A stretch of 64,000 bases of DNA, taken from an uncultured Candidatus Entotheonella sp. Lineage in GTDB: Bacteria > Tectomicrobia > Entotheonellia > Entotheonellales > Entotheonellaceae. The notes beneath the pieces were generated by a model. It saw only the letters and a program-made list of their open reading frames with translations. It was not told where the DNA came from and did no database searches. Made by a program: the position numbers and the translations under genes. Shown here one piece after another: positions 4,369-36,006 of this stretch (its first letter is position 1; each line of letters opens with the position of its first letter). Where the stretch lies: positions 310,001-374,000 of the forward strand of contig OY282375.1 of the NCBI GenBank assembly GCA_958295825.1, in the 5' to 3' direction.

Positions 4369-4511
4369 GTTGAAGCGACCGGCGAGCGAGCGCGGAGCCC
4401 GAGGCCGGGGGATGCAGGGGGAAACCACGGAAGGAGAATATGCAATTAGTAGTTACAGGCTTGACAATTCAGACATGCAAGGTAATACCTTCTCTTGTAG
4501 GAGGTGATGCC

Positions 4512-5387
4512 ATGAACCTGATCAGCATTTTCAGCAAGTACCCGACTCAAGAATCCTGTACCAAACACCTTGAAACCGTCCGTTGGGGCGACAACCCGAC
4601 CTGCCCATATTGCAAAAGCGACAAGGTGGCCCGCAAGAACGAACTGGATAAAGTGGGCCGCTGGAATTGCCATGCGTGCAAGTCCAGCTTCAACGTGCTG
4701 TCCGGCACCGTGTTCCAAAAAACGCGCATCCCGTTGCAAAAGTGGCTCTTGGCAATCGGCTTGATTGTAAACGCCAAGAAAAGCCTGTCCAGCTGCCAGC
4801 TTGCGCGTGACCTTCGGGTCTCGCAGCCTGCCGCGTGGTACATGCAGCAGCGCATCCGCGTTGCCATGGTGGCGAGCGAACGCGAATTGCTCCAGGGCAT
4901 CGTCGAGATGGACGAGACCTACCTAGGCGGCAAGCCCCGAAAGGGAAACAAGCGCGAAGACGATAAGCCCGCCAAGAAAGGACGCGGCACCAGCAAGCAA
5001 GCCGTGGTTGGCGCTGTTGAACGTGGCGGGCGCGTGTTCGCCAGCACGTCCACCAGCCTTTCGGGTACGGCCGCTGCTGCGCTTCATCAAGGCCAATATC
5101 GACCCTGACGGCTCGCTGCTCATCACGGACGAATGGAAGGGTTAACAACGGCGTCCGCAAGCACGTCAAGCACGCGGTCATCAATCATAGCCCAGCCTAC
5201 GTTGGGCAGCACGCATACCAACACGATTGAGGGCTTCTGGAGCCTGCTCAAGCGGGCCGGGTATGGCCAGCATCACCATTACAGCAAGCTCTACACGCTG
5301 CTGTACTTGGCTGAGGCGTGCTGGAAATACAACATGCGCAAGAACGACAACGCCTTCCGTGCCTTCTTGCGGGGGTGCTTCGGATGA
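4512..5387 (+). pseudogene. IS1595-family transposase (copy A), broken
   Basis: DDE-superfamily transposase with an N-terminal zinc ribbon (CPYCKSDK, then WNCHACKSSF) and catalytic-region motifs EMDETYLGG, LLITDEWKG and HTNTIEGFWSLLKR. The start at 4512 follows AGGAGGTGATGCC. The frame breaks near 5080, and again after DEWKG, where a stop occurs at about 5142, so the protein is not continuous. The final ATGA overlaps the start of the methyltransferase, an arrangement repeated in every copy here. Confidence 0.85.
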
Positions 5388-6253
5388 ACCGGCTCTACTA
5401 CGGCGACTGCCTGACCGTGATGCAGGAATACATGGGCCTCGGTAGTGTAGACCTTATCTACTTGGACCCGCCCTTCAACAGCAATCGTAACTACAACGCC
5501 ATTTACAAGGACGAAACGGGACGGGTGCTGCCAGACCAGATCGAGGCGTTTTGCGGCCTGTGGACGCTGGACGCGGAACGCCAGCGTGCCATCCAGTCAT
5601 GCCCGTGCTGATGCGTGATGCTGGCATTGACGATGCGGCGGCACAGCTGTGGAAACTGTGGCTTCACGCCTTGCGTCACACGCAGCCGCGTCTGCTGGCC
5701 TATCTGACGTATATGGCGGAGCGCCTCTTGCAAATGAAACCCATCCTGAAGCCAACTGGCTCGATTTATCTGCACTGCGGTCCGACCGCCAGCCACTATA
5801 TCAAGGCGCTTATGGACGCCATCTTCGGACATGAAAATTTCAGGAATGAGCAGGAATGAGATTGTCTGGAAAAGGACCACGACGCACCGTGACAGCAAGA
5901 CTTGGAGCCGCGTCTCTGACGTCATCCTGTTTTACTCAAGAGGCCAACGCATCATTTGGAATACCCCTCGCAAGTAAATACAAGCATGATGATGGGGATG
6001 GGCGGCTTTATACATTGGATAACATGACCAGCCCGAATCTGCGACCGAATATGATGTATCAATGGAAAGGATTCCCAACTCCGGCAAAAGGATGGCGTTA
6101 TTCCAAGGAGACAATGGCACGGTTAGATCAAGACGGGCGAATCTGGTATCCAATGCTAAAGAATGGCACATATGACACTTCACGGCGGCCTCGGTTCAAA
6201 AGGTATCTGGACGAAATGAGAGGTGGCGTCATGGGCAACGTGTGGTCTGACAT
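5384..6253 (+). pseudogene. Beta-class DNA methyltransferase passenger (copy A), frameshifted and truncated
   Basis: It starts with MNRLYYGDCL and carries the catalytic motif DPPFNSN at residues 28-34. The motif order (IV before I) is that of beta-class N6-adenine or N4-cytosine enzymes. Frameshifts occur near 5600, 5855 and 5940. The frame ends at WSD, where an IS5-family element starts, so the SAM-binding FDPFCG motif and the nuclease-like C-terminus present in copies C-E are lost. The start codon overlaps the transposase stop as ATGA. Confidence 0.8.
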
Positions 6254-8192: not shown

Positions 8193-8977
8193 TGAACATG
8201 AACAGGGTTCTGAAACAAGCCATGACGCGCGTCAACCCGGAGATCATGGGGCAATGGCTCAGCAAGGTGCATCACGGGGATTGCGTGAAACTCATGGACA
8301 AGATGCCAGTTGGTTCTGTGGACGTGATTGTCACCAGTCCGCCATATAACATCAGGAACAGCACGGGTAACGGCTTGAAGGACGGGCGCGGCGGCAAATG
8401 GGAGAAAGCAGAACTGGTGAAGGGCTATGCCGGGCACAACGACGCCATGCCGCACGATGAATACGTAGCCTGGCAGCAGGGTTGCTTGCGCGCCATGATG
8501 CGCGTGCTCAGAGAAGACGGCGCTATATTCTACAACCACAAGTGGCGCGTACAAGGTGGCCTGCTACAAGACAGGGCGGACATCGTACAGGGCTTTCCCG
8601 TGCGCCAGATCATCATCTGGCAACGTAGCGGCGGCCTGAACTTTAATCCTGGCTACTTCTTGCCCACGTATGAAGTCATCTATCTGATTGCCAAGCCCAA
8701 CTTTCGCCTCGCGCCGAAGGCAAATGCGCTTGGCGACGTGTGGCGCATTCCCCAGGAAGCCAACAACCCACATCCCGCGCCCTTTCCGGTCGAGCTTGCA
8801 CAGCGTTGCATCAATTCTACAACTGGGCAGATCGTCCTTGATCCGTTCATCGGTTCAGGCACCACGGCAATGGCTGCGGAGATGGCGCGTCGGGCATGGG
8901 TCGGCATGGAAATCTCTGCTGATTACTGCAAGCTGGCAAGCGAGCGAATCAACGCTGTCAGAAGGATGATCCGATGA
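8189..8977 (+). CDS. DNA methyltransferase of a type II RM pair (transposon B passenger)
   Basis: A 262-residue SAM-dependent DNA methyltransferase of beta order: the catalytic motif TSPPYN lies near residue 50 and the SAM-binding VLDPFIGSGTT near residue 217. SPPY suits N4-cytosine or N6-adenine methylation; pairing with an MvaI/BcnI-type nuclease suggests N4-cytosine in a CC-x-GG type site (inference). It starts at the ATG overlapping the transposase stop; further ATGs follow immediately. It ends ATGA into the nuclease gene. With the nuclease frameshifted, it would act as a solitary epigenetic methylase that rides on the transposon. Confidence 0.92.
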   Translation: MMNMNRVLKQAMTRVNPEIMGQWLSKVHHGDCVKLMDKMPVGSVDVIVTSPPYNIRNSTGNGLKDGRGGKWEKAELVKGYAGHNDAMPHDEYVAWQQGCLRAMMRVLREDGAIFYNHKWRVQGGLLQDRADIVQGFPVRQIIIWQRSGGLNFNPGYFLPTYEVIYLIAKPNFRLAPKANALGDVWRIPQEANNPHPAPFPVELAQRCINSTTGQIVLDPFIGSGTTAMAAEMARRAWVGMEISADYCKLASERINAVRRMIR

Positions 8978-12852: not shown

Positions 12853-12881
12853 GTGTTCCCCGCACAGGCGGGGATGAACCG
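12853..12881 (+). CRISPR. Orphan type I-E CRISPR repeat
   Basis: A single 29-bp unit starting GTGTTCCCCGCAC and ending GGGATGAACCG. It is identical to the consensus of the main array but on the opposite strand and 8 kb away. No second repeat is found one unit (61 bp) to either side. It lies between the SDR gene and the damaged left end of transposon C. The remaining DNA of the 12687-12956 gap shows no convincing gene. Confidence 0.9.
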
Positions 12882-12956
12882 GTAAAACAATATGATCCGA
12901 ATATGATCTAGTGGCATCCATTGGGAAGACGCTTACAGCAATTGGCCGGTGACGCC

Positions 12957-13835
12957 ATGAATCTGATCAGCATTTTCAACAAGTACCCCGATCAGGCAGC
13001 CTGTATCCGACACCTTGAAGCTGTTCGTTGGGGTGACAATCCTGCCTGCCCCCCACTGCAAGAGCACGAACATTGCCCGCAAAGCCGACTCTGAGCGCGT
13101 CGGGTGCTGGAATTGCCATGCGTGCAAGTCCAGCTTCAACGTGCTGTCCGGCACCGTGTTCCAAAAGACGCGCATCCCGTTGCAAAAGTGGCTCTTGGCA
13201 ATCGGCTTGATTGTAAACGCCAAGAAAAGCCTGTCCAGCTGCCAGCTTGCGCGTGACCTTCGGGTCTCGCAGCCTGCCGCGTGGTACATGCAGCAGCGCA
13301 TCCGCGTTGCCATGGTGGCGAGCGAACGCGAATTGCTCCAGGGCATCGTCGAGATGGACGAGACCTACCTAGGCGGCAAGCCCCGAAAGGGAAACAAGCG
13401 CGAAGACGATAAGCCCGCCAAGAAAGGACGCGGCACCAGCAAGCAAGCCGTGGTTGGCGCTGTTGAACGTGGCGGGCGCGTGTTCGCCAGCACGTCCACC
13501 AGCCTTTCGGGTACGGCGCTGCTGCGCTTCATCAAGGCCAATATCGACCCTGACGGCTCGCTGCTCATCACGGACGAATGGAAGGGTTAACAACGGCGTC
13601 CGCAAGCACGTCAAGCACGCGGTCATCAATCATAACCCAGCCTACGTTGACGGCAGCACGCATACCAACACGATTGAGGGCTCTCTGGAGCCTGCTCAAG
13701 CGGGCCGGGTATGGCCAACATCACCATTACAGCAAGCTCTACACGCTGCTGTACTTGGCTGAGGCGTGTTGGAAATACAACATGCGCAAGAACGGCAACG
13801 CCTTCCGTGCCTTCTTGCGGGGGTGCTTCGGATGA
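12957..13835 (+). pseudogene. IS1595-family transposase (copy C), broken
   Basis: It starts MNLISIFNKYPDQAACIRHL. A frameshift in the first zinc-ribbon Cys pair near 13054 is followed by WNCHACKSSF, EMDETYLGG and LLITDEWKG. A stop follows at about 13588, and another frame carries the terminal part with LWSLLKRAGYGQHHHY. The N-terminal section diverges from copy A, but the remainder is almost identical to it, including the same lesion after DEWKG, so A and C share a broken ancestor. The final ATGA overlaps the passenger start. Confidence 0.85.
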
Positions 13836-14099
13836 ACCGGCTCTACTACGGCGACTGCCTGACCGTGATGCAGGAATACATGGGCCTCGGTAGTGTAGAC
13901 CTTATCTACTTGGACCCGCCCTTCAACAGCAATCGTAACTACAACGCCATTTACAAGGACGAAACGGGATGGGTGCCGCCAGACCAGATTGAGGCGTTGT
14001 GAAGGGCGCATCAATTGGCCGTCAGGCGGGGATGGCGTGCCCCGCTCCAAGCGGTATCTCGACGATATGGAAGGTGTTCCCGCCCAGAACATTATTGTA

Positions 14100-14944: not shown

Positions 14945-14994
14945 TAGACATCCTGCCTCTTTCAGCCAAAGAAAGGCTTGGCTTTCTTACCCAA

Positions 14995-15699
14995 AAGCCG
15001 GTTGCCTTGCTGGAGCGCATCATCAAGGCGAGCAGCAACGAGAGGGACGTTGTGTTTGATCCCTTCTGTGGCTGCGCCACCACGCTTGAAGCAGCCCACA
15101 ATCTCAATCGGAAATGGATCGGCGTTGACATCGCTATCCATGCCGTCAAGCGCATAGCAGCGATCCGGCTACGTGACCGGCTTGGCTTGAAAGAGGGGAC
15201 CGACTTCACCATCGAAGGCATCCCGCACACGCTGGCAGGTGCCCGCGACCTGTGGCAGCGAGCCCCTATCATTTTCAGAAGTGGGCGGTTGAACAGATTG
15301 ACGGCTTCGTGACAACTTGGCGCACAGGCGACGGTGGGATTGACGGACGCTTGTACTTCGCTCTACCAAACACGCCGACCCTGCAAAGCATGGCGATTGA
15401 AGTGAAAGGTGTGCAGGAGGTATCAATCCGTGACCTGCGTGCTTGAAAACGACGACGCCCTGCTGGCTGGGCTGGTCATCATGGAAAAACTGGGCGACCG
15501 CAAGGAGCAAAACTTCCGGCGCTTCATGGCCGAGGCAGGTGATATGGACGTGTTATGCCTAAAGTACCCGCGCATGCAGATGCGATCGGTGCCGGAAATC
15601 TTGGACGGCAAAGGGTTTGACACGCCTGGAGCGGTTGCGCGAGGTACCCAGCAGGGCGTACTATTAAGCCCATAACTTATGATTGCGAAAACCTTTTCC
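14995..15699 (+). repeat. Left arm of a 0.7-kb inverted repeat (transposons C and D)
   Basis: About 700 bp of copy C, from GGTTGCCTTGCTGGAGCGCA onwards, reappear inverted and nearly identical at 17536-18256. The match runs through the transposon end and a further 17 bases of flank (TTGCGAAAACCTTTTCC). Confidence 0.85.
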
Positions 15700-17545: not shown

Positions 17546-18256
17546 TTCGCAACCATAAGTTATGGGCTTAATAGTACGCCCTGCTGGGTACCTCGCGCAA
17601 CCGCTCCAGGCGTGTCAAACCCTTTGCCGTCCAAGATTTCCGGCACCGATCGCATCTGCATGCGCGGGTACTTTAGGCACAACACGTCCATATCACCTGC
17701 CTCGGCCATGAAGCGCCGGAAGTTTTGCTCCTTGCGGTCGCCCAGTTTTTCCATGATGACCAGCCCAGCCAGCAGGGCGTCGTCGTTTTCAAGCACGCCG
17801 CTCAAAGCACGCAGGTCACGGATTGATACCTCCTGCCCACCCTTCACTTCAATCGCCATGCTTTGCAGGGTCGGCGTGTTTGGTAGAGCGAAGTACAAGC
17901 GTCCGTCAATCCCACCGTCGCCTGTGCGCCAAGTTGTCACGAAGCCGTCAATCTGTTCAACCGCCCACTTCTGAAAATGATAGGGGGGCTCGCTGCCACA
18001 GGTCGCGGGCGCCTTCCAGCGTGTGCGGGATGCCTTCGATGGTGAAGTCGGTCCCCTCTTTCAAGCCAAGCCGGTCACGTAGCCGGATCGCTGCTATACG
18101 CTTGACGGCATGGATAGCGATGTCAACGCCGATCCATTTCCGATTGAGATTGTGGGCTGCTTCAAGCGTGGTGGCGCAGCCACAGAAGGGATCAAACACA
18201 ACGTCCCTCTCGTTGCTGCTCGCCTTGATGATGCGCTCCAGCAAGGCAACCGGCTT
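17536..18256 (-). repeat. Right arm of the 0.7-kb inverted repeat (transposons C and D)
   Basis: Inverted counterpart of 14995-15699. The arms face each other across about 1.84 kb holding the cytochrome gene and the cas6 fragment. Confidence 0.85.
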
Positions 18257-18450
18257 TTGGGTGTTATAACCCATGCGCTCTCTGGCTTGGCTGTTTATTG
18301 GAGGGATGTCAGACCACACGTTGCCCATGACGCCACCTCTCATTTCGTCCAGATACCTTTTGAATCAAGGCCGCCGTGAAGTGTCATGTGTGCCATTCTT
18401 TAGCATTGGATACCAGATTCGCCCGTCTTGATCTAACCGTACCATTGTCT
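17560..18450 (-). pseudogene. C-terminal part of methyltransferase-nuclease passenger (copy D)
   Basis: It reads from near KRYLDEMRGG and WSDIPP through the SAM motif FDPFCGCATT, then a frameshift near 17985, then the nuclease-like region with GDGGIDGRLYF and IEVKGGQEV, to the stop at 17560. The catalytic DPPF motif and start are missing. The 14-bp segment deleted from copy C is present here, and the C-terminal 125 residues after the frameshift are uninterrupted. Confidence 0.82.
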
Positions 18451-18535: not shown

Positions 18536-19316
18536 ATGAACCTGATCAGTATTTTCAGCAAGTATCCGACGCAAGAATCCTGCCTTGAACACCTTGAAAC
18601 CGTCCGTTGGGGGGATAATCCGACCTGCCCGCATTGCAGGAGCGACAAGGTGGCCCGCAAGAACGAACTGGACAAGGTGGGCCGTTGGAATGGCCACGCT
18701 TGTAAGTCCAGCTTCAACGTCCTGTCCGGCACGATCATGCAAAAGACCAAAGTCCCTTTGCAAAAGTGGTTCCTGGCAATCGGCTTGATGGCGAACGCCA
18801 AGAAACGCCTGTCGAGCTGCCAGCTTGCCCGTGGTCTGGACGTGAGGCAACAAACCGTATGGTACATGCAAACCCGCATTCGGGTTGCGATGGTGAACCG
18901 CGAGCGTCACCTGCTCCAAGGCATCATCGAAGCCGACGAAACCTATCTGGGCGGCAAGCCGCGTAACGGCCCGCACTGCCGCCAAGGTCCACGGCAAGAC
19001 CCTGCTCAAGTTCATCAAGGACAACGTGGAACCCGCCGGCTCGCTGCTGATGACGGACGAATGGAAGGGCTATGGCGGCGTCAAGAACTTCATGCAGCAC
19101 GCCGTTATCAACCACAGCACGGCCTATGCCGAAGGCTCGGTTCACACCAACACGATTGAGGGCTTCTGGTCTTTGCTCAAGCGCGCCTGGTACGGCTCGC
19201 ATCACCACTACGGCGTACCGTATACCCTGCTGTACGTCGCCGAAGCCTGCTGGAAGTACAACGAACGCAAGAATGTCGATCCATTCAGCACCTTCCTCCG
19301 GGGATGCTTCGCGTGA
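18536..19316 (+). pseudogene. IS1595-family transposase (copy E), internal deletion
   Basis: It starts MNLISIFSKYPTQESC after AGGAGGTGACGCC. The zinc ribbon has CPHCRSDK, but the second pair reads WNGHACKSSF, so one Cys is replaced by Gly. The catalytic region EADETYLGGKPRN runs into a deletion and frameshift near 18970; the other frame continues with LLKFIKDNVEPAGSLLMTDE and HTNTIEGFWSLLKRAW. About 35 residues present in copy A are missing. The terminal GTGA overlaps the passenger start. Confidence 0.85.
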
Positions 19317-20920
19317 ACCGGCTCTACTACGGCGACTGCCTCACGATCATGCGAGATCACGTGAACCTGGGCAGCGTGGACCTGATTTACCTGGACCCGC
19401 CCTTCAACTCGAATCAGGAATACAACGCCATTTACAGGGATGCCACCGGCCGCCTGCTGCCTGACCAGATTGAAGCCTTCTGCGACCTGTGGACATTGGA
19501 CGAGGAGCGCGAACGCGCCATCCGCGTCATGCCGGTGCTCATGCGCGAACGCGGCATCGATGACAAGGTGGCTGAGTTCTGGCGTCTTTGGGTGAATGCC
19601 TTGCGCGGCACGCAGCCGCGCTTGCTGGCGTATCTGTCCTACATGGTAGAGCGCTTGCTGTCAATGAAGCCCATCTTGAAGCCGACTGGCTCCATCTACC
19701 TGCATGGTGATCCGACTGCCAGCCACTACCTCAAAGTGATGATGGACGCCATCTTGGGGCATGAGAACTTCAGAAGCGAGATTACCTGGCGACGCACAAG
19801 TTCTCATAACGATTCCAAAGGCTTTGGGCAGGTGAGAGACCTCATCCTGTCCTATTCCAAGACATCTGCTAGGACGTGGAATCCGGTGTATGTGCCTCAT
19901 GATGAGAAATAGGTGTCCGACTTTTACAGACCTGAAGACGAGGAGGGCAGATACAGACTTCACGAAATCATACGCACGGCATCAATGGGAGAAAGGCCGA
20001 ACCTTGTGTATGAATACAAGGGATATGTCCCAAGATGGGGGTGGCGTATGAAGCCCGCCAAGTTGCGGGCGTTGGACAGAGAGGGGCGACTTGTATGGTC
20101 TGGCACGGGGCGCCCTGATCGCAAGACCTATCTCTCTGGCGGGCGACCTGCAACGAATTTGTGGAACGATATTGACAACTTGTCTGGCCGCGCCCGTGAA
20201 CGCATGGGCTACGCGACGCAAAAGCCCTTGGCGCTGCTTGAGCGCATCATCAAGGCGAGCAGCAATGAAGGCGACGTGGTATTCGACCCGTTCTGCGGTT
20301 GCGCCACCACGCTGGAGGCTGCCCACAGACTGGGGCGGCGCTGGGTCGGTATCGACATCGCCATTCACGCCGTCAAGCGCGTGGCGAAGGTGCGCCTGCA
20401 AGACCGCCTGCGATTGGTGGCGGGCAAGGACTTTGAAGTTGACGGCGTGCCGCGCACCCTGGAAGGCGCCCGCGACCTGTGGAAGCGTGATCCCTACCAC
20501 TTCCAGAAATGGGCTGTCGAAACCGTGGACGGCTTCGTGACAACGCGGCGCACGGCAGACGGCGGCATCGACGGACGCTTGTACTTCGCTATGCCGAACG
20601 TGGACGACCTGCAAAGCATGGCGATGGAGGTGAAGGGCGGCAAGAATGTCGGTATTGCCACGCGACGCGCCCTGCGAGGCGTGTTGGAGAACGACGCGGC
20701 GCTGAGGGTCGGCCTGATTATCCTGGAGCCATTGGGCGTAACGAAGGAACGTAACTTCCATCGCTTCATGGCTGAGGCAGGGGATACCCAGTCCACGTTT
20801 GCGCGGCCATACCCCCGTATGCAGCTACGGACGGTTGAAGACATTCTGAATGGCAAGGGATTCGACGTGCCGGGCATGGTTGCGCGCGACACAGGGCAGG
20901 GCGTGCTATTAAGCCTGTAA
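19313..20920 (+). pseudogene. DNA methyltransferase with C-terminal PD-(D/E)XK-like domain (copy E), one in-frame TAG
   Basis: The most complete passenger: 535 codons from the GTG that overlaps the transposase stop, broken only by a TAG at 19910 between HDEK and VSDFYRPED in the same frame. DPPFNSN stands at about residues 28-34, the SAM motif FDPFCGCATT near 323, and the C-terminal domain carries GGIDGRLYF near 416 and EVKGGKN near 438, an order that fits a PD-(D/E)XK (Mrr-like) nuclease. The fusion would be a single-chain modification or restriction-modification enzyme. The amber codon could be a real mutation or be read through; I cannot tell. Confidence 0.82.
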
Positions 20921-20964
20921 CTTGTAATTCCGTTCACCAAATTGCCCAGGGCGTCGACCCTCAC

Positions 20965-23900
20965 GCTTTCATCCCCGCCTGTGCGGGGAACACCCCACCG
21001 TGTCGTGTCTCACGGGGGCTCCCCGCGGTTCATCCCCGCCTGTGCGGGGAACACTCCAGGCCCGCAAGCCGAGGGATGAGATATGCCGGTTCATCCCCGC
21101 CTGTGCGGGGAACACCCGAGGGGATAGGCAGGAAGTCGCCGGAGGGTCGGTTCATCCCCGCCTGTGCGGGGAACACTTTCCTCAATCATCCCAGCCTGGG
21201 GCACCATCCGGTTCATCCCCGCCTGTGCGGGGAACACTACACGTTCAGCTCAAGGGACTCTTCGGCCACCGGTTCATCCCCGCCTGTGCGGGGAACACGC
21301 GTCGTACCGCATTAGGTTCGTGCTTTCCGACGGTTCATCCCCGCCTGTGCGGGGAACACTATGGCAAAAGCTGTACCAAGGTGACGTTGAGCGGTTCATC
21401 CCCGCCTGTGCGGGGAACACCCGCTGCTGACGATCGTCGCCCTGATTTTGTTCGGTTCATCCCCGCCTGTGCGGGGAACACAGCTAGTTGACGCTGTACC
21501 ATGTAGGCGGACACGGTTCATCCCCGCCTGTGCGGGGAACACGAATTGCGCAACGTCCAGGAGGGACTGGAAGGCGGTTCATCCCCGCCTGTGCGGGGAA
21601 CACGCCCGTGCGAGTCCCCGCCGACATCATCACGTCGGTTCATCCCCGCCTGTGCGGGGAACACATGACCGCCTTTGCGGAGAATGGTTCCCGTTCCGGT
21701 TCATCCCCGCCTGTGCGGGGAACACTGGCAATGCCAGCAGAGAGAGAAATCACCCGGCGGTTCATCCCCGCCTGTGCGGGGAACACTCACAAGCAAGCCG
21801 GGTGCTCTGTTGATTATCCGGTTCATCCCCGCCTGTGCGGGGAACACACCCAGCCTTGTTGCTGGAATTTCGTATTAACCGGTTCATCCCCGCCTGTGCG
21901 GGGAACACGATTCGCGCAAACGTCTTGATCCGCGCGTCCACGGTTCATCCCCGCCTGTGCGGGGAACACGACCACGTGGGTGGCCTGGTACCCGTGGTTT
22001 CCGGTTCATCCCCGCCTGTGCGGGGAACACGGAATCCCGCTCACCAAGCGCCACTTCCGGGCCGGTTCATCCCCGCCTGTGCGGGGAACACGGCGCTACC
22101 CAAGACAGTAGTTTCCGCCGCATCGGTTCATCCCCGCCTGTGCGGGGAACACTCGGCGAGGATGTCACGCATCCGCTCTCACTCCGGTTCATCCCCGCCT
22201 GTGCGGGGAACACCGGAAGGGCAACCCGCGCTATTTGGTTCTGTGCGGTTCATCCCCGCCTGTGCGGGGAACACCGTGTCGGCGTTGCGCCAAAAGAAAC
22301 GCCGATCGGTTCATCCCCGCCTGTGCGGGGAACACGCGGACCTGCACCTGCTGGCCGTGGCCGCGATCGGTTCATCCCCGCCTGTGCGGGGAACACTGCG
22401 GCGCGATTTTGTTGATTGCCTCGGTGGTCGGTTCATCCCCGCCTGTGCGGGGAACACTGGAGAAACTCGCGCCGGCTGCACGTAGATGTCGGTTCATCCC
22501 CGCCTGTGCGGGGAACACACGTGCAGGCGGAGGTCGAACGCAAGAGCGCACGGTTCATCCCCGCCTGTGCGGGGAACACCTCAAATGCACGTTCAACGGG
22601 GTTTTCAGCGCCGGTTCATCCCCGCCTGTGCGGGGAACACTTCGATCCGCCGCACCCGGATGCGCGGCTCGCCGGTTCATCCCCGCCTGTGCGGGGAACA
22701 CCGCCTCGTTGGCCCTCTGCCACCTGATGGACGCGGTTCATCCCCGCCTGTGCGGGGAACACATGGCTGGGGCGCGGCCTCACGATCTGCACGTCGGTTC
22801 ATCCCCGCCTGTGCGGGGAACACCAGATCGCATGCCCGAACGCCCTGTGCCTGGCCGGTTCATCCCCGCCTGTGCGGGGAACACGCGAACGACTGCTGGT
22901 TCCGGGCGAGGCTGTCCGGTTCATCCCCGCCTGTGCGGGGAACACCGACTGGTACAGCCCTGGGAGCACCACGCCTTCGGTTCATCCCCGCCTGTGCGGG
23001 GAACACCATCAATGGCTACGCCCAGCTTGGCCTCCACCCGGTTCATCCCCGCCTGTGCGGGGAACACCCCGGCGATCTCGCTGTCGTGGACGAAGCCGCC
23101 GGTTCATCCCCGCCTGTGCGGGGAACACATATTGATAGCTCCGTGTGGCGGCGTCGGTAGCGGTTCATCCCCGCCTGTGCGGGGAACACTGCACCAGGTC
23201 GAGCGGTTTCTGCCGCTGCGTCGGTTCATCCCCGCCTGTGCGGGGAACACGTGAGCACGCTCATCGTACTCCCTTCAAAGCCCGGTTCATCCCCGCCTGT
23301 GCAGGGAACACACGTCGGCGCTGGTGCCGCCCTCGCGCCGGGACGGTTCATCCCCGCCTGTGCGGGGAACACCGCGCACCGTCGCTGCGTACAGCCCTCA
23401 GCTGCGGTTCATCCCCGCCTGTGCGGGGAACACGAAGCGATGACGCACGTGCGGCGCATACAGGCCGGTTCATCCCCGCCTGTGCGGGGAACACACACCT
23501 GGCTCTACAGAGACGCCGTCCCCAGGCGGTTCATCCCCGCCTGTGCGGGGAACACGGCAGACGACTCTTTGGCCCAAAACGCGTAGCCGGTTCATCCCCG
23601 CCTGTGCGGGGAACACGAAGTCGGCCTCGGCGGCGAGCACGACGACGTCGGTTCATCCCCGCCTGTGCGGGGAACACGTTCGGGTTCGGGCGCGCCGGCG
23701 CTACCGGGGCGGTTCATCCCCGCCTGTGCGGGGAACACGTCAACACCATCTCCCGGAACAGAAATATGTTCGGTTCATCCCCGCCTGTGCGGGGAACACG
23801 AACAGGAAGAGGAGGAGAACGCTTGAAACTGCGGTTCATCCCCGCCTGTGCGGGGAACACTCCGCGAGACAGCGAACGAACGCCGAGCTCGCCGGTTCAT

Positions 23901-25385
23901 CCCCGCCTGTGCGGGGAACACTATTTCTCCGCCACACAGTCTACCAGCGTGGTCGGTTCATCCCCGCCTGTGCGGGGAACACCGCCTCTCTCATTTTTTT
24001 GTTGGCGGCGACCACGGTTCATCCCCGCCTGTGCGGGGAACACCCCACTGATGCGTCGTGACGTGAGGAAATCGGCGGTTCATCCCCGCCTGTGCGGGGA
24101 ACACGATTTGGACCGCCCTGTTCAGCCATTCTATAGCGGTTCATCCCCGCCTGTGCGGGGAACACAGTCGCCCCGTGAACGACGAGCCGATGATGGCCGG
24201 TTCATCCCCGCCTGTGCGGGGAACACTGGATCGCGGCGTAGGCCGTGTCGTATCGCGCCGGTTCATCCCCGCCTGTGCGGGGAACACTTCGGCCCCGATT
24301 TCAGCCTGCGCCTGCTCACCGGTTCATCCCCGCCTGTGCGGGGAACACCTCCTCGCTGATGCCCCGGCGAGCGCAGGCGACGGTTCATCCCCGCCTGTGC
24401 GGGGAACACTTTAGCCGTCGCGGGGATTTATGGGCGCGCGGCGGTTCATCCCCGCCTGTGCGGGGAACACGTAAGCGCGGTGCTCTACGGGCAGGACAGC
24501 CGCGGTTCATCCCCGCCTGTGCGGGGAACACGGACGCTTGTAGACGTCGCGCGCGTGCTGCAGCGGTTCATCCCCGCCTGTGCGGGGAACACACGATTCT
24601 CTACCAGCGGCCGGCCACCGGGCGCGGTTCATCCCCGCCTGTGCGGGGAACACCCCGATCGGTATACCGGGCGGTTCCCCGCCTTCGGTTCATCCCCGCC
24701 TGTGCGGGGAACACCCGCCCCAGTGCAGGATGCCGTTGTAGTCAAGCGGTTCATCCCCGCCTGTGCGGGGAACACGGAGCGAGCCGGTGAGCGCACCCGT
24801 TACCCTCCGGTTCATCCCCGCCTGTGCGGGGAACACCATGCGAGCGATATCGCCGTTACCGTTGACTCCGGTTCATCCCCGCCTGTGCGGGGAACACAAA
24901 CTGGAAACGCTACGGGAAATTCTAGACACCGGTTCATCCCCGCCTGTGCGGGGAACACCAATAGCAAAATCTTCGCGGTCAACGCCGCTGCGGTTCATCC
25001 CCGCCTGTGCGGGGAACACGGAATCCCTCCACTCAGTTGCCTCCCCGCGTGCGGTTCATCCCCGCCTGTGCGGGGAACACCGTGGCCCGCCGACGTGCTG
25101 CTGACAAGGTAACGGTTCATCCCCGCCTGTGCGGGGAACACCAGCTCGCCGTGCATGTACCCGATGCCGCTGTCGGTTCATCCCCGCCTGTGCGGGGAAC
25201 ACGACCCGGCCGGGATGGAAACCGCGTCGTTTAGCGGTTCATCCCCGCCTGTGCGGGGAACACTCCGGGGAGTTCAAGGATACGCCGTTCACCGTCGGTT
25301 CATCCCCGCCTGTGCGGGGAACACCTGGTTCGCCAGGTTCTCCAAGTAGACGTTGCCGGTTCATCCCCGCCTGTGCGGGGAACAC
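20965..25385 (-). CRISPR. Type I-E CRISPR array, 73 repeats and 72 spacers
   Basis: The repeat unit is 29 bp; read on the minus strand it begins GTGTTCCCCGCAC and ends GGGATGAACCG, the type I-E pattern with an internal CCCCGC/GCGGGG hairpin. Units recur every 61 bp (32-nt spacers): the first and last repeat starts, 20965 and 25357, are exactly 72 periods apart. The repeat at 20965 differs from consensus in its last three bases (minus-strand reading), which marks it as the old, trailer end. The leader and cas2 lie at the right. One internal repeat (about 23283-23311) has a single G-to-A change on the plus strand. All other repeats look uniform, suggesting a long, actively maintained array. Confidence 0.98.
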
Positions 25386-25499: not shown

Positions 25500-26730
<1,231 letters not shown>

Positions 26731-26804
26731 GACGGTCAGGACCTCCCGATGAAGAAAATGCCGATCGCTGTCGAGTATCAGAGCGCCGGCCGACGGTCAT
26801 CCGG

Positions 26805-28007
26805 TCACCGAGTCGCTCCCTCGTTGTCCCGAGGCCTGAGGCAGAAGGTGACCCGCACGAATGGGTTGCGTTCATCCTGCATCAGCTCCGGCTCCGTGCC
26901 GTTGAACGCATGCATCTCTCTGCGCATGATCAGCCAACCTCTGCCCCACCGTTCCATAAAGCCCATACCGGCCATGAAGTGCGCAAGGGATTCGTTTCTC
27001 GACCGGGGGTTGACGCCGGCGCGTACGCGCTCCACCGTCATGTGGTTGGGCAGCGCCCCTGGGCTGGTCACGTCTACTCGGTGTTCGAACACTTCGAGCA
27101 GCACCTGCGAGCCGGTGATGGCGTAGTCACGATGCGTCACTGCATTCGCCAGCGCTTCCCGCATGGCTCGCCGTGGCAGCAAGTGGCGGTCTTCGCGTCT
27201 GAGGTTCTCATACGACTCGAATCGGCCGAGACCGAGAAACCACCCCGTTGCCCGTTCGACCTGCTCGTCCAGACGCCCGGCCGAATTAGCCACCTGCAAT
27301 ACCTCGCAAGCGCGGTCATCGCCCGCATAAGCCACGCATTCGATGCGGAAATCGCGCGTCCGCGTGTAGCGCTGAGGGTCTTTCCCAAAGGCGAGAACCC
27401 CGTAGAGCGTCGCGCGCAGCTCGCCTCCGATCTCGACTAGCACATCTCGATTGCGCAAGTCGTCCAGGCTGTCCGGCTGCGGATCGTCCGTGGTGTCGAA
27501 TCCCAGACGTTGCAGATAGGAGCGGAAGGCATCGAGATCAATGTGCGCGGGCGTTGCATCGAGGACTGCGCGTTCCTCGGTGAGGATGTACCCGAACGCA
27601 TTGTAGAGTTCCTGGAGTTCCGTCGCCGATGGCTCGACGCTGCTACGCTCGCGGCGAACCCAAACCCGAGCGTCGTAGCGCACGGGCTCGAATCCGCGTT
27701 GCCGCGGGATCTCAATCCAGTGCACCCACCCAGCCGGACCCTCGAAGCGTCCGGTGCGAGCGTGAACCGGCACGCTGCAACCTGTTTGGAGAAAGGAGGC
27801 CAAGCGTTCCTGCACCCTCTCGGTGTCCTCCTTGACGCCGATAATCCTCCGAGGGTCTTCAACTCCCAGGATGATCAGACCGCCCTCGGTGTTGGCGAAG
27901 GCACACATCGCCCTCCCGATGGCGGACAGGTCACCGAGCCCCCGCTTGAATTCCGTGTGTTGGTCTTCGCCCGCCTCGATCCGGCGCCGGACATCCTGCC
28001 ATTCCAT
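26805..28007 (-). CDS. AlbA_2/Schlafen-type ATP-binding protein inside the cas operon
   Basis: About 400 residues. The N-terminal part has DQHTEFKRG and AMCAFANTEGGLIILGVED, the AlbA_2 (Schlafen-like) domain. The middle is a winged region around ATELQELYNAFGY. The C-terminal part has RRAMREALANAVTHRDY and GRGWLIMRREM, as in HATPase_c_4 (RecG-like ATP-binding) proteins. I start it at MEWQDVRRR (28007), where homology begins; an ATG at 28061 is also open. It sits between cas6e and cas1 on the same strand, a place usually without an extra gene. Such proteins are commonly called transcriptional regulators, and some relatives work in phage defence. Its role here is unknown. Confidence 0.82.
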   Translation of the reverse strand: MEWQDVRRRIEAGEDQHTEFKRGLGDLSAIGRAMCAFANTEGGLIILGVEDPRRIIGVKEDTERVQERLASFLQTGCSVPVHARTGRFEGPAGWVHWIEIPRQRGFEPVRYDARVWVRRERSSVEPSATELQELYNAFGYILTEERAVLDATPAHIDLDAFRSYLQRLGFDTTDDPQPDSLDDLRNRDVLVEIGGELRATLYGVLAFGKDPQRYTRTRDFRIECVAYAGDDRACEVLQVANSAGRLDEQVERATGWFLGLGRFESYENLRREDRHLLPRRAMREALANAVTHRDYAITGSQVLLEVFEHRVDVTSPGALPNHMTVERVRAGVNPRSRNESLAHFMAGMGFMERWGRGWLIMRREMHAFNGTEPELMQDERNPFVRVTFCLRPRDNEGATR

Positions 28008-28103
28008 GACGTGATTCTCCTGCCGATCATATCCCATCGGCGCCTTTCCGAGGCAGGCCAAGGAGCTGTTGCCGCAAGTGAACGGTATTGCCGACGCCTT
28101 CAG

Positions 28104-28793
28104 TCAAGCGCGACGAATGAGCATCAGACCACAGCCGTATGCCTTGGCGGCGCCAAAGCCACCCGCGATGGCCGCCAGAAAAGCGTCGGGATCGCTTACC
28201 GTCAAGAGCCCGTCGAAGTCCAGCGTTGAAAACGACATGACGGACGCTGACCCTTTACGCGCAGCGCGGTGTTGCTCATAACCGTCCACGCGCATCCCGT
28301 CTGGCCGGATGGTGAAACCCGCCCTCTCGGCTTGCCGTTCGAGCCATGCAAAGCCCCGTTCCCGCATAAACGCAAGGCGGTGTTCGGCACGCCCGCCGCC
28401 GGGGTGGGAACGCAAGGCGTCCATCACCACGTCGTGCTTGACCGAACGCCCCCGCCGAGGGTCATAGCGGCGGACCACCGGATTGGCTCGCAGCGAGAAT
28501 TGCAACCGGTCTCCCGCCTCGAGTACTGGCGCGAACGGTTTTGGTGCGTCGATATCGAACAATGCGTGATGATCCACCGGCCGACGGGCCGACAGAACCA
28601 GGAAGGCGCCCCGCTCCATTTCGCGCCACAGGAAATCACGGCGGCGGTCAGGGGCGTCGGCAAAGAGCGACCAGACGAGATGATGACCCGGATGGTTGGC
28701 CCCGTTTTCCCCGCTCTGCAACAATGGCAGCAGCGCTTTCACCGTAGCATCGCGCCGGAGCCGGGCACGGGAGAGATAGAGGTCCACGGTCAT
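28104..28793 (-). CDS. cas6e: crRNA endonuclease Cas6e (CasE)
   Basis: RAMP-fold ribonuclease that cuts the array transcript within each repeat and stays bound to the 3' hairpin of the crRNA in Cascade. The length of 229 residues is typical. It opens MTVDLYLSRARLRRDA, and the candidate catalytic His is in GANHPGHHLVWSLF near the N-terminus. The glycine-rich end, GGFGAAKAYGCGLMLIRRA, is the family hallmark. It overlaps cas5 by 4 bases (ATGA), implying coupled translation. Confidence 0.95.
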   Translation of the reverse strand: MTVDLYLSRARLRRDATVKALLPLLQSGENGANHPGHHLVWSLFADAPDRRRDFLWREMERGAFLVLSARRPVDHHALFDIDAPKPFAPVLEAGDRLQFSLRANPVVRRYDPRRGRSVKHDVVMDALRSHPGGGRAEHRLAFMRERGFAWLERQAERAGFTIRPDGMRVDGYEQHRAARKGSASVMSFSTLDFDGLLTVSDPDAFLAAIAGGFGAAKAYGCGLMLIRRA

Positions 28794-29521
28794 TCTTGAC
28801 TGCTTTCAGGCACGGCAACCGCCTCCAGTCGATCGGTGAACTGCCAGCGGGTTCGGCTGAGAACGGCATCACGCCGGCGTTCGATGCGCACGTCGGCAGG
28901 TGCGCCGGGTGCGTCGTGGTCGAAGGCGACCTCGCCTGTCGCTACGCCGTTGATGTGAATGCTTTGCATAATGCTCCGTTCTGCCTCGCCCGGCTGCCGC
29001 GCCTCGAGGGCGTCCATGAAGGTGTCGGCTTTAATGATTTCGGGGTTGAGCGGTAAACCGAGCGGCGCCGACTTGCGTCCGACATAGAGCGCGAAACGCG
29101 GACGCTGCAGGGCGTTGGCGACATCTTCGAGATCGACAGCCTCGCCACGGCGTGGCCACAGAGCGACGGTAAAATAGGCGTCCGCTCGCCATTCCCGGCT
29201 GGAGAGTACGGTATTGAGATCGTCCGCTTCCAACTCCTGCCGCCGCGTCGCGAAGGTGCGGCCCTTACGGGCCTTCGGCGTCTGAGCGGTGTGATAGTCG
29301 ATGAGCGGACGACCCGGCGCGTCTGTCCTGACGGCGTAATACAGACCGGCCTCCAGGTTGTGGTGGGCGGTTTCATCCGTGCGCTCGATTCCCAGGGCGG
29401 CGGCGACCAACCCCAGGATGGCGGAGCGTCCTGGCCGCGCCCAGCTCATGCGGCGTTCCCCGACGGCAATCTCACCAAATGACGCCATTGGAGCGTAGAG
29501 GGTGAATAGCAGGAAGCGCAT
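28790..29521 (-). CDS. cas5: Cascade subunit Cas5e (CasD)
   Basis: RAMP-fold subunit that caps the 5' handle of the crRNA and contacts Cas8e. It has 243 residues, opens MRFLLFTLYAPMASFGEIAV and continues with RPGRSAILGLVAAALGIER, the conserved N-terminal pattern of I-E Cas5. It starts 4 bases after the cas7 stop and overlaps cas6e by 4 bases. Confidence 0.95.
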   Translation of the reverse strand: MRFLLFTLYAPMASFGEIAVGERRMSWARPGRSAILGLVAAALGIERTDETAHHNLEAGLYYAVRTDAPGRPLIDYHTAQTPKARKGRTFATRRQELEADDLNTVLSSREWRADAYFTVALWPRRGEAVDLEDVANALQRPRFALYVGRKSAPLGLPLNPEIIKADTFMDALEARQPGEAERSIMQSIHINGVATGEVAFDHDAPGAPADVRIERRRDAVLSRTRWQFTDRLEAVAVPESSQE

Positions 29522-29525
29522 GGCG

Positions 29526-31149
<1,624 letters not shown>

Positions 31150-32814
31150 TTATTTCCCCTCTTGCTCGCCCTTGCCGGGTTCGGGCGAAGCGATACCGAG
31201 GTCACGCTCGAACAGGGCGCGTCCAGACTTGCCACGACCGCCCAAAGCCAACGCCAGGAAGAACCGCGCCTTGACGTGACGGCGCATGTCCCGGTCCTCC
31301 AATCCATCTGCCGACGCATATTCGTCGAATAAGCGCAGCGCAGCTCCAGCCATGACTGGAGCCCAGTTCTCACGCGCGTTGATTGTGGGATCATCGACGT
31401 CCGGGGCGTTCTGGATTGACGCCACCGCATCCCTCATTGCCGCGTAAAATGCCCCTTCTGTTTCGCGGTAGAAACGTTCAGCTATGAAGCCGTAGTCGCC
31501 TGTTGCGTCGGAAGGTCGCTTGTAGAGAGCCGATTTCACAGCGTTTGTGATCAGCCGACTTACTCTGTCGGCGCCCGCCGTTGCGTGCTCGATAAATTTC
31601 CCGAGCCATTCCCGCGACGCCGCGACGGGCAGAAACCAGAAAGGCATCTCGCTCTCAATCCACGCACGGGCCTTCATGTTGTCCATGTCATAGCCGAACG
31701 CGGTGAATCGCGTCTGTCCCCTCCGCAGAGCACGTTCTGGCCAGTGCCGGACCACTTGGGCGGGCTCTCGAAGCTTGTCGCTGCTTGGAATAACGAGACC
31801 GGGCCAAAGGCGGTAACTAACGCCGCCGGGCTTGGGATGAACGGGCAATTTCGCAGTCCCCGCCTTCTGCCGGTAATACGGTGACAGCGGGTGCTCAAAC
31901 CCTTCCGAGTATTTCGTGCCGTAGTTCCTGGTACGGTACGACGTCACGATGACCATATCCTCAGAGTCGGTGAGGGAGCAGGGTCGGTTTCGTGCGTTCT
32001 CAAACAGGAGCCGAATACGTCGAGGCATGCCCCAATAAACCTGAAGGGGATGAACATCCGCCGGCGTCGTCAACCTGCCGCCTTCCTTGGGGTTGGATGC
32101 CCGTGTGGGAAGGAGCCAGGGAAAGATCGACCCGAGGCCATCAGGCCCCTTATCTTCGACAACACGCCTGCTGATTTGTCTTGTGCTCTCAACGTTGGGC
32201 CAAATTCGACCCCATAGGGTGGCACCGTAATTCTCATGGTCATTGACGATCAAAGTCGTCATCGGTCCGCCGCCGCGCAGCGACGTGCGATTTCCAGAGC
32301 CGCCAGACGGAGCGTAAGCACTCAACGTGAAGAGGGCCATTGCCGCAGCGGCACGGCTCAGGGCCAGCATATCGCCTCGCTTAACAAAAAGGTCAGCGTT
32401 GTTACGCAATGTTTCGGCGCCGGGTGCGTCAATCAGAAGTGCCGCAATTTTCTTGTTCTTTGCACCCTCTGGCAGATCGACGTCTTGCAGAAATCGCGGG
32501 CCGGGGCCGTCCAAATCGAAGGCGTGGGCAACCGTCAAGAACCGCTTCCTGAGAACATCCGGCGCTGGCGGACTCTGCCACCAATCTTCCCATTCCTCAT
32601 CGTCTTCCGGCGCAGCAGCAGTAGACAGCAGGCCAATCAGAAACTCGTGCGCCGCGCCGTTGAAATCCGGCCGCGGCCAAGCAAAGGCCACAAACGGGTC
32701 CTCTGCAATTCCGTCGGTGACGCGCCAGGGCGGGATATGCTCGACAGCACCGCTGCGGCGACGGACGGGCAGCCAAGCGGCGTTGATCAGGTTGAAGACA
32801 TTGGGTTCGGACAT
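31150..32814 (-). CDS. cas8e: Cascade large subunit Cas8e/Cse1 (CasA)
   Basis: PAM-recognising large subunit that recruits Cas3. The protein of 554 residues starts MSEPNVFNLINAAWLPVRRR, the family start; upstream in-frame Met codons (to 32907) lack homology. It includes LLSTAAAPEDDEEWEDWW and a C-terminal helical bundle (MAGAALRLFDEYASADGLED). It is the first gene of the Cascade block, adjacent to cas11. A 456-bp gap containing an oppositely oriented hicB-like gene separates it from cas3, so it may have its own promoter. Confidence 0.95.
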   Translation of the reverse strand: MSEPNVFNLINAAWLPVRRRSGAVEHIPPWRVTDGIAEDPFVAFAWPRPDFNGAAHEFLIGLLSTAAAPEDDEEWEDWWQSPPAPDVLRKRFLTVAHAFDLDGPGPRFLQDVDLPEGAKNKKIAALLIDAPGAETLRNNADLFVKRGDMLALSRAAAAMALFTLSAYAPSGGSGNRTSLRGGGPMTTLIVNDHENYGATLWGRIWPNVESTRQISRRVVEDKGPDGLGSIFPWLLPTRASNPKEGGRLTTPADVHPLQVYWGMPRRIRLLFENARNRPCSLTDSEDMVIVTSYRTRNYGTKYSEGFEHPLSPYYRQKAGTAKLPVHPKPGGVSYRLWPGLVIPSSDKLREPAQVVRHWPERALRRGQTRFTAFGYDMDNMKARAWIESEMPFWFLPVAASREWLGKFIEHATAGADRVSRLITNAVKSALYKRPSDATGDYGFIAERFYRETEGAFYAAMRDAVASIQNAPDVDDPTINARENWAPVMAGAALRLFDEYASADGLEDRDMRRHVKARFFLALALGGRGKSGRALFERDLGIASPEPGKGEQEGK

Positions 32815-32949
32815 GACGCGCCTCGGAATGCACTGTTGGACATACAGCGATACCGCTGTTGATCTTGCCACAGTAGGAGAAATCCGACAAACTTGCCAAC
32901 GAACCAAGCCCTGTATACGGCATCACGCAATTTGTCGGGAGGTGACGGC

Positions 32950-33270: not shown

Positions 33271-36006
33271 TCACCGTTCTTTCCTGTCTGTCGTCAAGCC
33301 CTGTTGCGAGTTATAGTTGAGCCGGACGTCCGTCGCCGTCTCGCCCCCCGACCTTGCCGTTCCGGACCAGGTTTGATCCCCGGCCTCGGTCTCCTCGAGC
33401 ACCACCAGAATCTTGTCCGCATCGAACCGCGTCCAGGCCATCTTGGCCGTTTGGACGGCGTCGGCATACTCAGGCGGCACGGCTTCGCCGCTGACACGCC
33501 GCGCGGTCATGTTCACCTCACTGAACCGCCACGCCCGCCATGGCTCATCCGGTTCGACATGGGGAGCGTAAGGCTCGATACGGCTGCCGCGAACCCGTGC
33601 GAGCCGTAGCGTGACTTGCGGGTCGTCAACGAGCCGGGTTGGCGTGCGTACGTCGCGGTCCCAGGCGCCGCCGTCCCATACGTAGCCCTTGGCGAGATCA
33701 AGTACGTTGGTATTGGCCACCCCGCGCTCGGCGCCCGCTCTACCCTCTGCGTCGAAGAAGCGGCCCAGCAAGGCTTCTGGAACGTCCGCATCGACGTCGT
33801 CGCCGTATACGGCTTCAATGAGCGCCCGCAGTCCGCCGGGGCTTTCGATGCCGGCGGTGTCTGCCAGCGCTTTAGCTGTGAGCCAGAGGCGCGCGTGATC
33901 CTCGTAGACATACGCCGCGCGCGGAAAAGCCCGGCTGAACCATTTCGCGTCCGCGTCGGCGATGGGTTCCGGTCCCACCACGAGTAATTCCGGCTGGCCT
34001 TGGCGTTCGGGGCGTTGGTGTCGCCACAGCCTGCCCGCGCGCTGGATCAGCAGATCAATCGGCGCGAGATCGGTGATCAGCGCGTCGAAGTCCAGGTCCA
34101 GCGATTGCTCGACTACCTGCGTGGCGATCAGCACCCTGCCGGCTCGCCGTGCGGGGGGCGTACTACCGGACTTGCCGAACGTCGCAACCACTCGTTTCTC
34201 GATTTGCAGGCGATCGACGAGTGCGAAACGGGCGTGAAAGACATCGGCATCGAGCCCCCTGGCCGTCAATGCTGCATGGGCTTCGAGAGCGTCATCGACC
34301 GTGTTGCGGATATAGAGCACGGCTTGGCCGCTGCCAGATGCCTGTTCGACCGCGGTCAACGCCTCCTCGGTGGTGCGGAGGAAACGCACCGGAAGCGTAC
34401 GCGCTCGCCCGGGCTGTCCGGAAACCTTCGTGGATGTTCGGACGCTGGCCCCACAGACCGTGGCCAATGGGTAGCCCATGTCGCTGTCGACCGAGTGGGG
34501 TGTCACCTCTTTGTTTCCCAACCCTTTCGAGAAGGCGTCGGCCAGCCGTTTGCGGACCGACAGGGGAAGGGTGGCCGACAGCAGGATTGCAGAACCGCCC
34601 AACCCCGCCTGGAAATCGAGCAGCCGCTCGATTTCGCGCTGCATGTAGGCGTCGTACGCATGCACCTCGTCAAGAATGAGGACGCGGCGCATCAGGCCCA
34701 GCAGCCGCAGCGATTGGTGCCGGCTGGGCAGGATCGACAACAGCGCCTGATCCACCGTGCCGGCGCCCGCATCGGCTAGAAAGGCGCGCCGTCTGTCGTC
34801 GGCAATCCAGGCCGTGCAGGCCGCTGAAGCGGTCGTTTCTGATCCCGCCTCCCAGCTCTTGGCAGGTGAGTAGGGGGCCTCATCGCGCCCGGCCGCCAAC
34901 ACCGCCGACCGAAAGCCGTCGTGCATGTCGCGGGCGCCGTGAGCCAGGGCAATGGAGGGCAAAGCGTCTGTTGCGAACAAATGCCGACATGCGGTGGCGA
35001 GGCGGTCGAACATGGCGTTGGCCGTGGCCATGGTGGGCAGCGCCACGTAGAGGCCGTCCGCCCGCCCGGACGCCATCAGCCTTTGAGCAAGCATCAGGGC
35101 CGCCTCCGTCTTGCCGCTACCGGTTTCGTCTTCGATCATGAACAGCGCCGGACCGTCCGGCAGCTTGACGGATTTGGCCCAATTCTGCATCGGCGTCGGG
35201 ATCGCATCCGCGCCAATCAAGGCGCCGTAGTCAAGATGGCTGCTGCTGTCGGTGGGCAGGACGCCAGCTGCTTCGACGGCGCGCTCTGCTCGCTTCCGGG
35301 TATAACGCCAGTACGCCTCGAGGTCTTGAGCCGGTTCACGATACGGAAACCATTCCTGTTTGGAACCGATCCAATCCGCCAGCACGGCAAGGCCGGCGAG
35401 AGCAAAAGACGCACGCCGCACACGTTCGCGTTCGAGCGGCGGCAACGCCTGGGGCAAGGCGAACAGATCGCGCGTCTGCTGGATAAACGTTTCGACAGCT
35501 TCGATGCCTGCCCTGCCGAAGTCGGACCGTAATGTGATGAGGCTCTCACCGGTAACCGGCGGCGGCGGGGCGCCGTGATGCCCGACAACCGCCGAAACCA
35601 AGACGCGCCACACACGGCGGCCCGGTCCGCTGGGCAGCTGGAAAAGACCATCAGCAGCATCAGCATCGAACAGGCGCAGTCCCCCGGCGCCGTGGTCGTA
35701 ACGGTCCGGAACAGAAGCAGGATCGTCGCCAAAACAGTCGGGGTACAGCACCGGCGCCTTTGCCTGGAATTTCTTGGCAAATTTGCCGATGTCGTGCAGA
35801 CACAGGAGGAAGCAGACGACGGAAACGGTTTCTTCGCTCGGCAGGCCCAGCAGGCCGGGCAGGCTTTGTCGCAGGCCGCGACGTTGGGTCAGCAGCGCTT
35901 CACCGACCGCGGCGACATCGAGACAATGGTAGGGAAGCGGGTGCCATTGCGGACCGCGGTCGGGTTCAAGGGGCTGCGCCTTGCCCCAGAATGAGAGCAC
36001 ATTCAT
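33271..36006 (-). CDS. cas3: CRISPR-associated helicase-nuclease Cas3, type I-E
   Basis: Cascade-recruited nuclease-helicase that degrades target DNA. The protein of 911 residues has an N-terminal HD nuclease domain (LHDIGK with HD at 71-72, GHHG at 142-145, ADWIGS at 210-215). The superfamily 2 helicase follows with Walker A GSGKT at 296-300, DEVH at 446-449 and SATLP at 477-481, then a C-terminal accessory domain. All expected catalytic residues are present, so it looks functional. The gene lies 69 bases downstream of the hydroxyacid dehydrogenase on the same strand; an own promoter must be in or near that gap. Confidence 0.97.
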   Translation of the reverse strand: MNVLSFWGKAQPLEPDRGPQWHPLPYHCLDVAAVGEALLTQRRGLRQSLPGLLGLPSEETVSVVCFLLCLHDIGKFAKKFQAKAPVLYPDCFGDDPASVPDRYDHGAGGLRLFDADAADGLFQLPSGPGRRVWRVLVSAVVGHHGAPPPPVTGESLITLRSDFGRAGIEAVETFIQQTRDLFALPQALPPLERERVRRASFALAGLAVLADWIGSKQEWFPYREPAQDLEAYWRYTRKRAERAVEAAGVLPTDSSSHLDYGALIGADAIPTPMQNWAKSVKLPDGPALFMIEDETGSGKTEAALMLAQRLMASGRADGLYVALPTMATANAMFDRLATACRHLFATDALPSIALAHGARDMHDGFRSAVLAAGRDEAPYSPAKSWEAGSETTASAACTAWIADDRRRAFLADAGAGTVDQALLSILPSRHQSLRLLGLMRRVLILDEVHAYDAYMQREIERLLDFQAGLGGSAILLSATLPLSVRKRLADAFSKGLGNKEVTPHSVDSDMGYPLATVCGASVRTSTKVSGQPGRARTLPVRFLRTTEEALTAVEQASGSGQAVLYIRNTVDDALEAHAALTARGLDADVFHARFALVDRLQIEKRVVATFGKSGSTPPARRAGRVLIATQVVEQSLDLDFDALITDLAPIDLLIQRAGRLWRHQRPERQGQPELLVVGPEPIADADAKWFSRAFPRAAYVYEDHARLWLTAKALADTAGIESPGGLRALIEAVYGDDVDADVPEALLGRFFDAEGRAGAERGVANTNVLDLAKGYVWDGGAWDRDVRTPTRLVDDPQVTLRLARVRGSRIEPYAPHVEPDEPWRAWRFSEVNMTARRVSGEAVPPEYADAVQTAKMAWTRFDADKILVVLEETEAGDQTWSGTARSGGETATDVRLNYNSQQGLTTDRKER

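Follow-up and report, generated by a model that had tools for sequence, protein, structure and literature searches.

What does a complete Schlafen-type gene do between the interference and adaptation genes of a type I-E CRISPR-Cas operon, and how did it come to lie there? The question was raised by the DNA analysed here, a stretch of 64,000 nucleotides from an uncultured Candidatus Entotheonella sp. (the window), whose genome consists of a single 4.29-Mb contig. Schlafen RNases have begun to connect the antiviral immunity of bacteria with that of animals, and both BREX and type I R-M systems are known to carry them as add-ons. A recurrent intact Schlafen gene in a DNA-targeting CRISPR operon extends this add-on pattern to type I-E and offers a naturally occurring case for examining whether type I CRISPR systems can be equipped with RNA cutting as a fallback. 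The reading favoured below, namely that the gene is the captured effector half of a TrlF + Schlafen module acting as a second-line RNase, is given about an even chance of holding as a whole.

The type I-E operon and its embedded gene

The type I-E set around the gene was found to be complete, with all of its parts on the minus strand. The gene for cas3 (911 aa, 33271-36006) was assigned from its sequence and position, without an HMM scan, and occupies the same place as the cas3 ORFs of two related loci, L009 and L028. It is followed by cse1/cas8e (31150-32907, counted from the most upstream start codon; TIGR02547), cse2/cas11e (30628-31149; TIGR02548), cas7e (29526-30578; TIGR01869), cas5e (28790-29521; TIGR01868), cas6e (28104-28793; TIGR01907), cas1e (25786-26730; TIGR03638, E = 1.2e-106), cas2e (25500-25808; TIGR01873) and a CRISPR array of 73 repeats and 72 unique spacers (20965-25385; consensus GTGTTCCCCGCACAGGCGGGGATGAACCG). 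Between cas6e and cas1e lies an intact gene of the same orientation (P0001; 26805-28007, 400 aa) for a Schlafen/AlbA_2 + GHKL-ATPase protein, identified by its open ORF, conserved start, Pfam matches and AlphaFold model. It is separated from cas6e by 96 bases (28008-28103, minus strand) and from cas1e by 74 bases (26731-26804, minus strand); relative to a sister locus with an empty site, homology stops at 28109 and resumes at 26758. The sequence-only reading had described a complete 400-residue AlbA_2 plus HATPase_c_4 protein at this place, in this direction and with these gaps, and the open ORF and Pfam matches bore it out. The stretch from cas6e to cas1 contains no consensus promoter and no minus-strand terminator, such scans being weak evidence; the embedded gene may be transcribed together with the cas operon.

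The gaps bear on a control of the CreTA kind, a CRISPR-regulated toxin-antitoxin in which Cascade with a crRNA-like guide would repress the gene. CreTA is also an extra element in a type I cas locus, and known modules adjoin cas genes, one of them between cas6 and cas8 (PMC8501985). However, neither gap contained a repeat-like element, in the window or in L009, and no crRNA-like guide or clear spacer match was found, the best match being 22/32 and the cas region no better than the rest of the window. Control of this kind was rejected on the gaps and the spacers; known CreT toxins are, in addition, small RNAs, whereas a protein of 400 aa is encoded here, and the explanation retains next to no probability.

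Domains and sequence constraint

The start codon is the conserved ATG of the family (M1 is invariant in 15 relatives), and a Shine-Dalgarno-like AGGAG was read from the sequence at 28017-28021 (minus strand). An SLFN_AlbA_2 (Schlafen) domain covers residues 14-124 (27636-27968, minus strand; PF04326, E = 2.4e-18, 67.2 bits against a curated cut-off of 25.3) and aligns to the solved SLFN14, SLFN12, SLFN5, SLFN8 and SLFN11. AlbA_2 domains are not always nucleases. Within this domain, the alignment of relatives located the Schlafen motif ExxxxExK (27945-27968, minus strand), whose residues E14, E19 and K21 are unchanged across the 15 relatives, with D51 further on. E14, E19 and K21 align with E206, E211 and K213 of SLFN14, which requires the equivalent residues to cleave tRNA (PMC12215978); in rat Slfn13, mutation of E205 or E210 abolishes activity (PMC5862951).

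A HATPase_c_4 (GHKL-type) domain follows at residues 299-388 (26844-27113, minus strand; PF13749, E = 3.5e-19, 69 bits against a cut-off of 26; also matched by Foldseek). Its N-box (E284, N288, H292) lies just upstream of the Pfam match and is invariant in the 15 relatives. The protein gave no other Pfam match and no wHTH, only 12 residues remaining past the end of HATPase_c_4 (388/400), and contained no recognisable DNA-binding domain besides AlbA_2. The AlphaFold model reached a mean pLDDT of 83.7 and a pTM of 0.62, so that its domain arrangement is uncertain; Foldseek matched it to the bacterial structure 3lmm, the RecG-related N-terminal domain 2kyy, SLFN12 and the catalytic domains of histidine kinases. 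With the vertebrate Schlafens (SLFN11/12/13/14) the protein has the AlbA_2 fold and ExxxxExK in common, but it possesses one AlbA_2 lobe instead of two and a GHKL domain in place of the helicase part. Matches of the protein to 'pAgo/Aga' in PADLOC most likely reflect domains in common, and an Argonaute was rejected.

Two roles had been put forward from the sequence alone, a CRISPR-linked regulator and a back-up defence effector. The former corresponds to the classical annotation of COG2865-type proteins, here as transcriptional regulator of the cas operon, and related AlbA_2/HATPase_c_4 proteins are sometimes annotated in this way. The missing C-terminal wHTH, the invariant nuclease motif and the absence of the gene from half of the closest I-E operons (see below) all count against it, and a regulator is considered very unlikely. 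The effector role is in agreement with the motif, with the TrlF + Schlafen home family described below and with published embedded systems (PMC12839542, PMC12255303).

Between the embedded gene and the intact copies of loci L008 and L009, dN/dS was 0.13-0.14, which is within the range between other family members and, as an average over their history, does not date the selection to the I-E context. Judged from these ratios, purifying constraint acts on the intact I-E and relic copies.

Recurrence at the cas6e-cas1 junction

Among the 84,980 species genomes scanned, nine loci (L008-L016) matched the protein at 60% or more over most or much of its length, and several shorter pieces were obtained as well. 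The neighbourhood survey of I-E loci that the sequence-only reading had proposed returned an intact copy, 76% identical, at the same cas6e-cas1 junction in L009 (Immundisolibacterales MAG), an 85-residue remnant at the same junction in L028 (Binatia MAG), where the adjoining cas genes are intact, and a relic in L008 (Acidobacteria MAG). A unique inserted oddity was ruled out by these three loci, and the first half of the refutation named in the sequence-only reading, that the gene would be at this place in no other I-E locus, was contradicted by L009. The close relatives stem mostly from MAGs, and their taxon assignments and deletions may be partly artefacts.

Six close I-E loci were compared: the window, L009, L028 and loci in the genomes G014, G120 and G126. 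The Schlafen gene is intact in two (window and L009), internally deleted in one (L028) and absent from three. In the sister Entotheonella locus of G014 (L043), whose cas6e and cas1e are 85% and 94% identical to those of the window, the two genes are no more than 50 bases apart, and over the DNA compared the Schlafen gene makes up the large difference; in G120 and G126 (cas1 85%) the junction is empty with a gap of 5 bases. Presence of the gene thus differs among closely related I-E systems of one lineage. Since the sister gap measures 50 bases and the same junction is used in L009 and L028, its placement is not due to chance.

At 46 further I-E-type loci (cas1 37-70% identical), sampled from Pseudomonadota, Acidobacteriota and the group around the Binatia MAG, and at second I-E systems of some of the genomes named above, no relative was found at the junction; cas6e could not be placed in six of these. 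In a cas1 tree, every Schlafen-bearing locus and the three empty ones formed one clade (98/97). The association of Schlafen and I-E is rare, and a gene missing at the junction from these 46 loci and from half of the close set is no conserved I-E core gene. It is an accessory, not a cas gene, present as a complete gene at a recurrent site inside another immune system. The three close loci without it and the truncated one likewise mean that the I-E system does not need it.

The same comparison bears on an accessory role in adaptation, in which the protein would help Cas1-Cas2 to acquire spacers. The gene does lie directly upstream of cas1 and in its direction; however, the sister locus L043, with a near-identical cas1 and with an array, has no copy, and relatives of the protein pair with TrlF, not with Cas1, which makes this role extremely unlikely.

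Probable origin in a TrlF-linked family

In nine other members of the family (L010, L011, L012, L115, L116, L117, L120, L121 and L122), the Schlafen gene was located 7-23 bases downstream of a gene for an ATPase of ~930 residues, which is degraded in places. Three of four tested partners passed the NCBIfam model NF045780, 'TrlF family AAA-like ATPase' (351-367 bits against 350), and the fourth scored 330. Distant relatives of the embedded protein on plasmids have the same TrlF-family partner. The Schlafen protein of such pairs, also annotated 'RNA-binding domain-containing protein', is of the same subfamily as the embedded protein, which is 53-77% identical over the full length and nested within that subfamily in the protein tree. 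In contrast to these pairs, the embedded gene lies in a cas operon and is preceded by cas6e; it has no adjoining TrlF gene, and the window genome contains no close TrlF partner, the best match being a 41% C-terminal fragment elsewhere.

The I-E and relic copies, together with the N-terminally deleted remnant L118, formed a clade (98/95) inside the TrlF-linked family. A grouping that kept the five I-E and relic copies together but left L118 out was rejected (p-AU 0.023), and L118 is therefore either a derived remnant or a sign that capture occurred twice; from the tree, capture by the I-E lineage probably happened once. No near relative of the protein was found in viral contigs (one match, 27%) or plasmids (all matches under 60%), and a phage or plasmid origin was dropped because these matches are too distant.

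Schlafen genes are embedded in other defence loci as well. An RNA-binding protein paired with an AAA-like ATPase is embedded in type I R-M (PMC12255303), and for BREX systems, across at least 1017 taxa, back-up effectors are reported in which a Schlafen RNase is joined to a minimal histidine kinase and a wHTH (PMC12839542). With the latter the embedded protein has its two core domains in common, and its gene is likewise placed inside another defence operon; it differs from them by its type I-E CRISPR-Cas host and by the absence of a wHTH. A relative in L012 lies downstream of genes for BrxL and a TrlF ATPase, as in the BREX association.

Several further arrangements of the pair were observed. 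The three genes for BrxL, TrlF ATPase and Schlafen stand in a row in L012 (1060-7176), which suggests that the pair also attaches to BREX-related loci. On the Klebsiella quasipneumoniae plasmid p2_21223 (L134, 3377-7164), a TrlF ATPase + Schlafen pair is located between the hsdR and hsdS genes of a type I R-M operon. In L121 (5424-15414), a second tandem cluster of TrlF-like and Schlafen-like genes is found directly behind the first pair.

Relic loci and loss of the AlbA_2 half

In the Acidobacteria MAG locus L008, an intact copy, 82% identical, has no cas genes adjoining. It begins shortly after a 57-base 3' tail of cas6e including the stop codon (44/57 identical; 0/2000 shuffles as good). 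At most ~15 bases downstream of it stands one I-E repeat, and behind this a tmRNA gene. The locus has retained the Schlafen gene but lost its cas genes, an argument against a strict need for Cascade in keeping the Schlafen protein harmless; because this one relic locus retains the gene intact after cas loss, the protein can probably work, and stay quiet, without Cascade. The relic (8345-8694: cas6e tail, Schlafen gene and one repeat) was seen to stop ~100 bases before the tmRNA gene. Genes for tmRNA are a common integration site for islands.

Two further loci were graded as probable relics of I-E loci, L015 because two I-E-like repeats lie ~66 bases downstream of its Schlafen relative, and L014, the weaker case, because of a leader-like stretch, its only similarity of this kind, in common with L028 (3/2000 shuffles as good). 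A cas6e tail was searched for upstream of both and was absent.

The AlbA_2 core was lost by deletion in four copies, each time in frame and with different endpoints (residues 20-139 in L014, 32-143 in L015, 22-128 in L028 and 7-135 in L018); L028 and L018 carry further damage. In-frame losses with differing endpoints are as expected of a costly domain. They suggest that carrying the nuclease half has a cost in some settings, and they fit a toxin-like effector, with assembly errors in MAGs as a possible contribution.

These loci also bear on the gene being a passenger, an independent Schlafen defence gene or a decaying remnant in an expressed I-E site that is functionally unconnected with Cascade and with adaptation. 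Presence and absence among close loci, repeated truncation and the retention of the gene in L008 without cas genes would all be expected of such a gene. The same junction and orientation in two other phyla would not, nor would purifying constraint on the intact copies or preservation of the gene while the I-E locus was transferred between distant genomes, and a passenger is regarded as possible, if on the unlikely side.

Type I R-M operons can house RNase effectors such as PrrC, for which control by the host system was shown. Like the embedded gene, that of PrrC is an RNase-type gene inside another immune system's operon, although of an unrelated protein family. By analogy, the embedded protein could be a suicide RNase that guards Cascade, blocked by Cascade or a Cas protein until a phage or an anti-CRISPR puts that inhibitor out of action; this is judged improbable. 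The location in the operon without a TrlF partner of its own agrees with a guard, the truncated nuclease halves of L014, L015 and L018 would be an expected escape, and type I R-M operons contain related pairs (PMC12255303); against it, L008 has an intact copy and no adjoining cas genes, and L028 lost the nuclease half though its cas genes are intact. Put more fully, a Schlafen tRNase that had lost its own sensor ATPase would now rely for sensing on Cascade or a different Cas protein, with anti-CRISPRs or cas loss leading to abortive translation arrest, for which likewise only an outside chance is allowed. Were it true, escape would have left its trace in the repeated in-frame loss of the nuclease half only. 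Together, the intact, internally deleted, empty and cas-less loci offer a ready comparison for what silences such an effector.

The AlbA_2 half was also observed on its own, as a stand-alone protein of 147-150 residues, 69-71% identical to the embedded protein and with ExxxxExK intact (G000:C1:1106188-1106598 in L002; L017, 6992-7444; L042, 1468-1920). This protein and its neighbours are conserved between Entotheonella genomes, and the N-terminal homologue in L017 is 100% identical to that of G002.

Proposed course of capture and action

In the favoured reading, the gene would stem from a two-gene defence module of TrlF-ATPase and Schlafen, of which it formed the effector half, and would have been captured into the interference/adaptation junction of one type I-E lineage while its ATPase partner stayed behind. 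This lineage would then have moved between phyla, some descendants losing or truncating the Schlafen gene. On a signal of infection, the protein may work as a (t)RNase that depends on metal and is under the control of its GHKL-type ATP-binding domain; by halting translation in the infected cell it would provide a second-line or abortive defence. Recurrence in distant bacteria suggests a second line of defence built into the operon.

Repeats and mobile elements elsewhere in the window

One perfect I-E repeat was located at 12853-12881 (plus strand), ~8 kb from the array and with no second repeat nearby. It lies ~70 bases upstream of one of two copies of a transposase-like element (4503-5535 and 12948-13983; 82-99% identical in parts), and an ORF at 18536 opens with sequence like that element. 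Diverged duplicates (71-78%) of a DNA-methyltransferase-like gene were found at 14989-15687 and 20216-20932, and also at 17957-18343 (minus strand) and 19304-20920 (plus strand); they border the far end of the CRISPR array, one being split into two ORFs and another being a partial inverted copy.
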